Positions 54,535-55,880 of a stretch of DNA of 64,000 nucleotides are shown piece after piece; position 1 is the first letter of the stretch; each line of letters starts with the position of its first letter. The notes under the pieces were generated by a model. It was not told the DNA's origin. It saw only the letters and a program-made list of their open reading frames with translations, and made no database searches. The translations under genes were made by a program, and so were the position numbers. Origin of the DNA: Oxalicibacterium flavum (GTDB lineage Bacteria; Pseudomonadota; Gammaproteobacteria; Burkholderiales; Burkholderiaceae_D); assembly GCF_014635065.1 (NCBI RefSeq), contig NZ_BMCG01000002.1, forward strand, positions 62,001-126,000. The letters are read 5' to 3'.

Positions 54535-54709
54535 TAGAGTTCCTTTTTGTTTTTTGTAAAAGATATTTTTACTTTTCGTAAGTTGCCATACGAGATGGCG
54601 AAAGTTTGACGTTTCGTGGATGTACCTTGAAAAGCCTCATGTAACCCCTAATTATCATTGCTAAACAGTAATGTTGCACCACATAAATATGGGATGCCGC
54701 CCTGTTTAA

Positions 54710-54725
54710 CTGTATTTATATACAG
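54710..54725. promoter_or_regulatory. LexA (SOS) box before the radical SAM gene
   Basis: CTGTATTTATATACAG: perfect CTGT-N8-ACAG with an all-AT core, flanked by AA and TA. It ends 12 bases before the ATG of the 54738 gene, overlapping its promoter. Confidence 0.82.
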
Positions 54726-54737
54726 TATAGTGGGCGC

Positions 54738-55880
54738 ATGATTAATCGTGATTGGCCTCTTGTCTTCAAGCCGTTTCCACTCAAGGCGGAAAAAGGGCGC
54801 GGCGCTGTCTCCAATCTGCAGGGCCGCTACGAGGTGCTTGGGCGCGAACGCTTCGACGACGGCTGGACACATGAGGACGAGGAAGAAGACGGCCGCCGTA
54901 TCGTCACTACCGTCCACCACGAGCAGGCAAAAACCATCCTGAGCCGCAACGCCTCGCCCGACATCCCGTTCGGCGTGTCGCTGAATCCCTACCGTGGTTG
55001 CGAGCACGGCTGCATCTATTGTTTCGCGCGTCCCACGCACAGCTATCTGGGCCTGTCGCCCGGCATGGACTTCGAGACGCGGCTGTTCGCCAAGGTCAAC
55101 GCGCCGGAACTGCTGCGGCAGGAACTGGCGAAGCCTTCCTATATGCCGGAACCGATCGCGCTCGGCATCAACACTGACGCCTACCAGCCCTGCGAACGCA
55201 CGCTGGGCCTGACGCGGCGCGTACTCGAGGTGCTGCACGAATGCCGTCATCCGGTCGGGCTGATCAGCAAGTCGTCGCTGATCGAGCGCGACATCGACCT
55301 GCTTGCGCCGATGGCCGCCGACCGCCTGGCCGGCGCCGCCGTCACGCTGACCACGCTCGATCCGACCATCGCGCGGACGCTGGAACCGCGCGCGGCGGCA
55401 CCGGCGCGTCGTCTGCGCACGATACGCACGCTGGCCGAGGCCGGCATTCCGGTCAGTGTCAGCATCGCGCCGGTGATCCCGTTCGTGACCGAGCCGGACC
55501 TCGAGCACATCGTGCAGGCCGCCTTCGATGCCGGCGCCTGCAGCGCGCACTACATCGTGCTGCGCCTGCCGTGGGAAGTCAGCCCGCTGTTCCGCGAATG
55601 GCTGGAGGCGCATTTCCCGGACCGTGCGCAACGCGTGATGAACCGCATCCAGGACATGCGCGGCGGCAAGGACTACGACGCCGACTTCGCCACGCGCATG
55701 AAGGGCGAGGGCATCTGGGCCGACCTGATCCGCCAGCGCTTCGAAAAGGCGGTGGCGCGCTACGGCGTACAGGGACCGGACCGTTTTGGCGGGCTCGATA
55801 CCTCGCAGTTCCGCCGCCCGCTGACGGTGCCGACAAAAGAAAAGGCCGGCAAGCATGCCGGCCAGCTCGACCTGTTCTGA
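54738..55880 (+). CDS. PA0069-family radical SAM protein
   Basis: A 380-residue radical SAM enzyme. The cluster motif is Cys88-x3-Cys92-x2-Cys95 (CEHGCIYC) and the whole resembles spore-photoproduct-lyase-like and PA0069/Rv2578c proteins (LSRNASPDIPFGVSLNPYRG, YRGCEHGCIYCFARPTHSY parts; ISKSSLIERDIDLL; RIQDMRGGKDYDADF). The reaction is not established; a DNA or RNA repair/modification role is often suggested. It sits directly behind a LexA box and is convergent with an SDR gene 10 bases away. ATG 54738 is the natural start and lies within the SOS promoter context. Confidence 0.93.
   Translation: MINRDWPLVFKPFPLKAEKGRGAVSNLQGRYEVLGRERFDDGWTHEDEEEDGRRIVTTVHHEQAKTILSRNASPDIPFGVSLNPYRGCEHGCIYCFARPTHSYLGLSPGMDFETRLFAKVNAPELLRQELAKPSYMPEPIALGINTDAYQPCERTLGLTRRVLEVLHECRHPVGLISKSSLIERDIDLLAPMAADRLAGAAVTLTTLDPTIARTLEPRAAAPARRLRTIRTLAEAGIPVSVSIAPVIPFVTEPDLEHIVQAAFDAGACSAHYIVLRLPWEVSPLFREWLEAHFPDRAQRVMNRIQDMRGGKDYDADFATRMKGEGIWADLIRQRFEKAVARYGVQGPDRFGGLDTSQFRRPLTVPTKEKAGKHAGQLDLF

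Follow-up and report, generated by a model that had tools for sequence, protein, structure and literature searches.

Enzymes that repair DNA by direct reversal are few, comprising the photolyases, AlkB, Ada/Ogt, and spore photoproduct lyase. The spore photoproduct lesion forms in spores, and the hosts of the gene described here are nonsporulating. SOS control of a gene called splB was predicted in 2012 in alpha- and betaproteobacteria via divergent LexA motifs (PMC3323433), and COG1533 has been listed as SOS regulated in several species (PMC8565304); together, these reports place SOS-regulated splB (COG1533) in alpha- and betaproteobacteria and Bacteroidetes. Their passages on splB treat the product as a spore photoproduct lyase or photolyase, whereas the protein in our window (the whole 64,000-nucleotide stretch analyzed) lacks the catalytic cysteine; a clamp motif is not mentioned in those passages. 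The regulatory claim made there, resting on divergent LexA boxes, is the same as ours, and the published splB and the window gene very probably belong to the same gene family. SOS control of the gene is thus an already known pattern, for which PMC3323433 has precedence. Three points appear to be new as far as checked: the conserved tail predicted to dock on the clamp, the argument that the chemistry is not that of spore photoproduct lyase, and the operons with an alternative LexA-like gene.

The features of the locus are compiled in Table 1. The first-pass annotation had described a CTGT-N8-ACAG box with an AT-only core, 12 bases from the start codon of a radical SAM gene of the PA0069 family that has a CxxxCxxC motif, and everything in that description that the sequence itself can show was correct. 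The box reads CTGT-ATTTATAT-ACAG, its core consisting of A and T throughout, and the ATG at 54738 follows after a gap of 12 bases (54726 to 54737). If the TATAGT that follows the box served as a −10 element, the transcript would possibly be near-leaderless; this element is a guess because the promoter scan gave only one unrelated weak match, at 54627 to 54655. Over residues 19 to 363 the protein scores 473 bits with NF033668 (rSAM_PA0069), whose cut-off is 360, and it belongs to this family over its full length. It shares the family's CxxxCxxC, NTDxYQPxE, and EPR motifs; the family model assigns no function, and its description line does not mention a clamp-binding tail.

Table 1. Positions of the features in the window, with the basis for each
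Feature	Position	Strand	Basis
LexA (SOS) operator CTGTATTTATATACAG	54710..54725	+	Perfect CTGTN8ACAG; top matrix score of 17 genome sites; kept upstream of homologues
Possible −10 element TATAGT	54726..54731	+	Abuts the box; read from sequence; a guess
PA0069-family radical SAM protein, 380 aa	54738..55880	+	NF033668, 473 bits; Pfam Radical_SAM PF04055, 51 bits
N-terminal KGRGA..N..GR segment, codons 19-30	54792..54827	+	R21 and R30 invariant in alignment A1 of 62 homologues
Predicted [4Fe-4S]/SAM-binding CxxxCxxC, codons 88-95	54999..55022	+	C88, C92, and C95 invariant in 62 sequences
N-T-D-x-Y-Q-P-x-E signature, codons 145-153	55170..55196	+	At the place of the lyase catalytic Cys loop
Predicted C-terminal beta-sliding-clamp-binding pentapeptide QLDLF, residues 376-380	55863..55877	+	Motif conservation in homologues

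The bare presence of CTGTN8ACAG was, on its own, not above chance: 0.40 sites are expected per 64-kb window, at least one site occurred in 36 of 100 shuffles, and the genome contained 17 sites compared with 15 for the reversed control. The discriminating feature was the core. The 17 sites were ranked with a scoring matrix trained only on the lexA, recA, dinB, and imuA boxes of this genome, the identities of these genes being assigned by NCBIfam. The radical SAM box took the first rank with a score of 22.8, above the boxes of all four training genes; the better lexA box scored 21.9 and the recA box 20.4. Other high-scoring sites with an AT core included those of lexA, which has two tandem boxes, recA, dinB, and imuA. 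We consider the box real because its score tops those of the genome's own SOS boxes, it recurs within the same family, and its motif is exchanged in alphaproteobacteria (see below).

In the same genome, CTGTTTTTTCATACAG, a LexA-type box with a high score, lies 97 bp ahead of flhD, which encodes the master regulator of flagella (G000:C2:518035; L003:1536-1551), and SOS control of motility is a possibility. Separately, CTGTTTTTTTATACAG, identical to the recA box, was found 74 bp upstream of the gene for a DUF481 protein (G000:C1:268883; L001:1584-1599).

Across relatives, the gene scored above the cut-off in 75 of 145 genomes of its own GTDB family. Its distribution in its own genus was patchy, with four sampled genomes having it and four others lacking it. 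Orthologous promoters were scanned from −150 to +60. Within the own family, 70 of them extended far enough upstream, and 55 of these had the perfect box; elsewhere in the same loci the motif occurred twice in 196 kb, which gives an expectation of 0.0021 per promoter. The box was likewise kept in 33 of 42 named Burkholderiales (Massilia, Collimonas, Paraburkholderia, Caballeronia, Variovorax, Polaromonas, and others) and in 17 of 20 genomes of a further draw (17 from the same class and 3 from the same order). Alphaproteobacterial homologues had no CTGT box and carried instead GTTC-N7-GTTC, the alphaproteobacterial LexA motif, in 22 of 30 and 16 of 18 cases, the set of 30 being called alphaproteobacterial because its genomes belong to other classes of the phylum and have this motif in common. 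Among the actinobacterial Rv2578c-type homologues, two of three (Streptomyces, L306, and Nonomuraea, L307) had GAAC-N4-GTTC upstream. The motif thus shifts with the repressor of the lineage, and this speaks for selection acting on LexA control as such. However, SOS control is not universal, because a draw of one genome per family across the class had the box in only 1 of 30, despite the presence of lexA in many of them, and it was present in none of six xanthomonad homologues, in which the xanthomonad-type LexA motif TTAGTA-N6-TACTA was also not found. Overall, with a box that is canonical by the standard of its own genome, conserved, and matched in its motif to the lineage, the sequence evidence strongly supports the earlier proposal that the gene belongs to the LexA regulon. 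The first-pass annotation had also placed PA0069 itself in the P. aeruginosa SOS regulon; the PA0069 literature examined gave no link to SOS, and we found none joining PA0069 or Rv2578c with LexA.

Nine own-family genomes had no box upstream of the gene, and in none of the nine did a lexA gene exceed the family cut-off. An S24 LexA-like gene adjoined the radical SAM gene in four of them, and a GTGAAC-N4-GTTCAC-type palindrome was located upstream of the radical SAM gene or operon, or in a shared S24 promoter, in seven. All seven also encode a divergent S24 LexA-like protein. The two genes formed a single transcription unit at L177, L179, and L180; the palindrome variant GTGTACAATTGTTCAC lay directly upstream of the radical SAM gene at L178, and GAACGAATGTTC lay ahead of the gene preceding it at L183 to L185. 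Relatives that lack canonical LexA often retain the gene next to a divergent LexA-like repressor or next to the palindrome of that repressor. The repressor, with its own operator, shares an operon with the radical SAM gene or regulates it, apparently as an alternative small SOS circuit. The other GTGAAC-type palindromes in these genomes were not at recognizable SOS genes, so a wider regulon of this operator is unproven. The divergent repressor (MVRPRxNLxxY...SITELxxLWxIxGRSWTHRLV) was observed at L177 to L180, L183 to L185, and L303 to L305, in own-family genomes without canonical lexA; it is a Peptidase_S24 protein by Pfam and falls below the cut-off of TIGR00498.

An AlphaFold2 model of the protein built with 62 homologues had a mean pLDDT of 83.6 and a pTM of 0.86. 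Its six best structural matches in the PDB were all spore photoproduct lyase (Z 18.6 to 18.9, about 258 residues), the best (4fhc/4fhg/4k9r) covering residues 55 to 349 with a Z of 18.9, an rmsd of 3.0 Å, and 257 aligned residues. The lyase has a CxxxCxYC motif equivalent to the CxxxCxxC of the window protein, but the two share 11% identity, the window protein has an extra conserved N-terminal segment, and the solved lyase ends in FFPGAYVQYFT, without the clamp peptide. The next match was lipoyl synthase (Z 15.2). Lipoyl synthase, NifB, and RlmN can be aligned as well, at Z 12 to 15, so likeness of fold leaves the substrate unfixed, and sharing the fold of spore photoproduct lyase does not prove function. 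Apart from C88, C92, and C95, no cysteine exceeded 40% conservation in the 62 sequences, which speaks against both an auxiliary cluster and a mechanism of the RlmN type. Searching the PDB by sequence returned nothing relevant for the single protein and only SkfB, weakly, for the profile, and a search of an anti-phage library with the protein gave no match. The family is found in Alpha-, Beta-, and Gammaproteobacteria and has actinobacterial relatives, the Rv2578c family (NF038135), to which the window protein is homologous over residues 58 to 299 (222 bits, below that family's cut-off of 430) but from which it differs in the N-terminal segment. The three Rv2578c-type homologues all end in a clamp-type peptide (QLTLL, QLRLL, and QESLF), in addition to the lineage SOS box in two of them.

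The canonical consensus of the beta-sliding-clamp-binding pentapeptide, expected in an exposed or disordered region, is QL[SD]LF, and the QLDLF at residues 376 to 380 matches it in a tail modeled with low confidence. A Qxx[LM][FLW] motif occurred within the last 10 residues in 156 of 171 homologues with complete C termini, and in 88 of 99 after removal of close relatives, compared with 1.2% of shuffled tails and 1 of 455 other open reading frames of at least 200 aa in the same loci. Several of the remaining homologues end in hexapeptide-like forms (QMALDL, QFTLAL); other ends include QLSLL in S. meliloti, QLDLFAGIV in Legionella, and AQLSLGI in Gemmatirosa. The last block of the model had a mean pLDDT of 53, a low confidence as would be expected of a flexible docking peptide. 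A short C-terminal motif of this kind predicts clamp binding and is not proof of it. Judged by titles and abstracts, the literature searched yielded nothing relevant on radical SAM enzymes with a clamp-binding motif, which is not proof of absence. For the earlier suggestion of a possible role in repairing or processing a lesion in nucleic acid, the conserved clamp-type peptide provides an independent line.

Our preferred reading, to which we assign a probability of roughly 0.6, is that the gene encodes an SOS-controlled, clamp-docked radical SAM enzyme with a lyase fold that repairs or processes a DNA lesion. LexA bound to the box, close ahead of the start codon, would block transcription, and DNA damage would lift this repression through RecA-driven self-cleavage of LexA. 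The product, predicted to be a radical SAM enzyme that has one cluster and folds like spore photoproduct lyase, would dock on the beta sliding clamp by its QLDLF tail, much like a translesion polymerase, and docking would deliver it to damaged DNA at stalled forks or gaps. There, at or behind the fork, as its fold and regulation suggest, the 5′-deoxyadenosyl radical may abstract hydrogen from a damaged nucleotide, after which the lesion would be reversed or remodeled. The chemistry would differ from that of spore photoproduct lyase because the hydrogen-donating cysteine is missing; speculatively, the product could be formed without a cysteine donor, via the invariant Y94, the near-invariant Y149, or regeneration of SAM. 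The operator, the fold, and the conserved clamp motif are well supported by the comparisons above; clamp binding, DNA as the substrate, the identity of the lesion, and direct reversal are what we infer from them. We give about even odds to the broader proposal that the family is a widespread, unrecognized repair class of SOS-induced, clamp-tethered radical SAM enzymes that reverse or remodel a replication-blocking lesion by a non-lyase mechanism. If true, the family would add a direct-reversal repair enzyme working at the fork, possibly beside the translesion polymerases whose activity drives mutation during antibiotic stress.

Among other explanations, a chance palindrome ahead of a gene outside SOS regulation would fit the 0.40 bare motifs expected per window and a genome count near that of the control, but it is hardly credible for a box whose conservation is several hundred times background and whose motif is replaced lineage by lineage. 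It is unlikely that the protein is a true SplB performing light-independent repair of the UV lesion 5-thyminyl-5,6-dihydrothymine. The hosts make no spores, in which that lesion forms. In its favor, no solved fold is nearer than that of spore photoproduct lyase, an EP...APVI segment is locally similar (hhalign E of 0.001, but a probability of only 21%), and such repair has been proposed for the SOS-regulated splB of alpha- and betaproteobacteria (PMC3323433). However, the window protein had no match to TIGR04070 at an E of up to 10, the best of three family members reached 11.3 bits against the cut-off of 400, and searching the genome of the window with TIGR04070 also gave no match. In addition, the hydrogen-donating cysteine of the lyase (140 in Geobacillus, 141 in Bacillus) aligns to residue 144, which is T, A, V, I, G, or S and never Cys, or to residue 145, which is N. 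Although this placement comes from a gappy, distant MAFFT alignment, the absence of an invariant fourth cysteine is independent of it. The second relay tyrosine, Y98, is F in 37 of 62 sequences. Identity as a photoproduct lyase was rejected on the missing catalytic cysteine, the lack of an invariant fourth cysteine, and the TIGR04070 result; of the relation to that enzyme drawn in the first-pass annotation, the fold stands and family membership does not.

The remaining alternatives accept LexA control as genuine. The enzyme might be an SOS-induced, clamp-bound modifier that remodels, for example, a nucleotide or a fork protein to aid translesion synthesis. Such a role, which we view as a lesser possibility, would suit a clamp peptide of the kind common to translesion polymerases (the DinB of the same genome has QGSLF near its end) and the arrangement in one class-level genome (L181, G215), where lexA2, dinB, and the radical SAM gene stand in tandem, close together on one strand, but this is a single such operon among about 211 loci. 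Action on RNA or a small molecule, with another role for the C-terminal peptide, has precedent in the many radical SAM enzymes of similar fold that act on tRNA, rRNA, or metabolites (RlmN, MiaB, TYW1). We regard it as very improbable, given that the clamp consensus persists in tails across phyla despite divergent linkers and that no fourth conserved cysteine is available for an RlmN-type mechanism.

The radical SAM gene was also seen to serve as an integration site, being broken at codons 86 to 91, the conserved GCEHGC cluster codons, in three genomes (L313/L314 in G126, L317/L318 in G101, and L315/L316 in G291). In G126, three large recombinase-like open reading frames, two of them with Phage_integrase matches, and a small one adjoin the break, and an intact radical SAM copy lies inside the element of about 51 kb; in G291, an intact copy lies beside the 5′ fragment. 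Among the NCBIfam entries is also a subfamily of Rv2578c that contains an intein.
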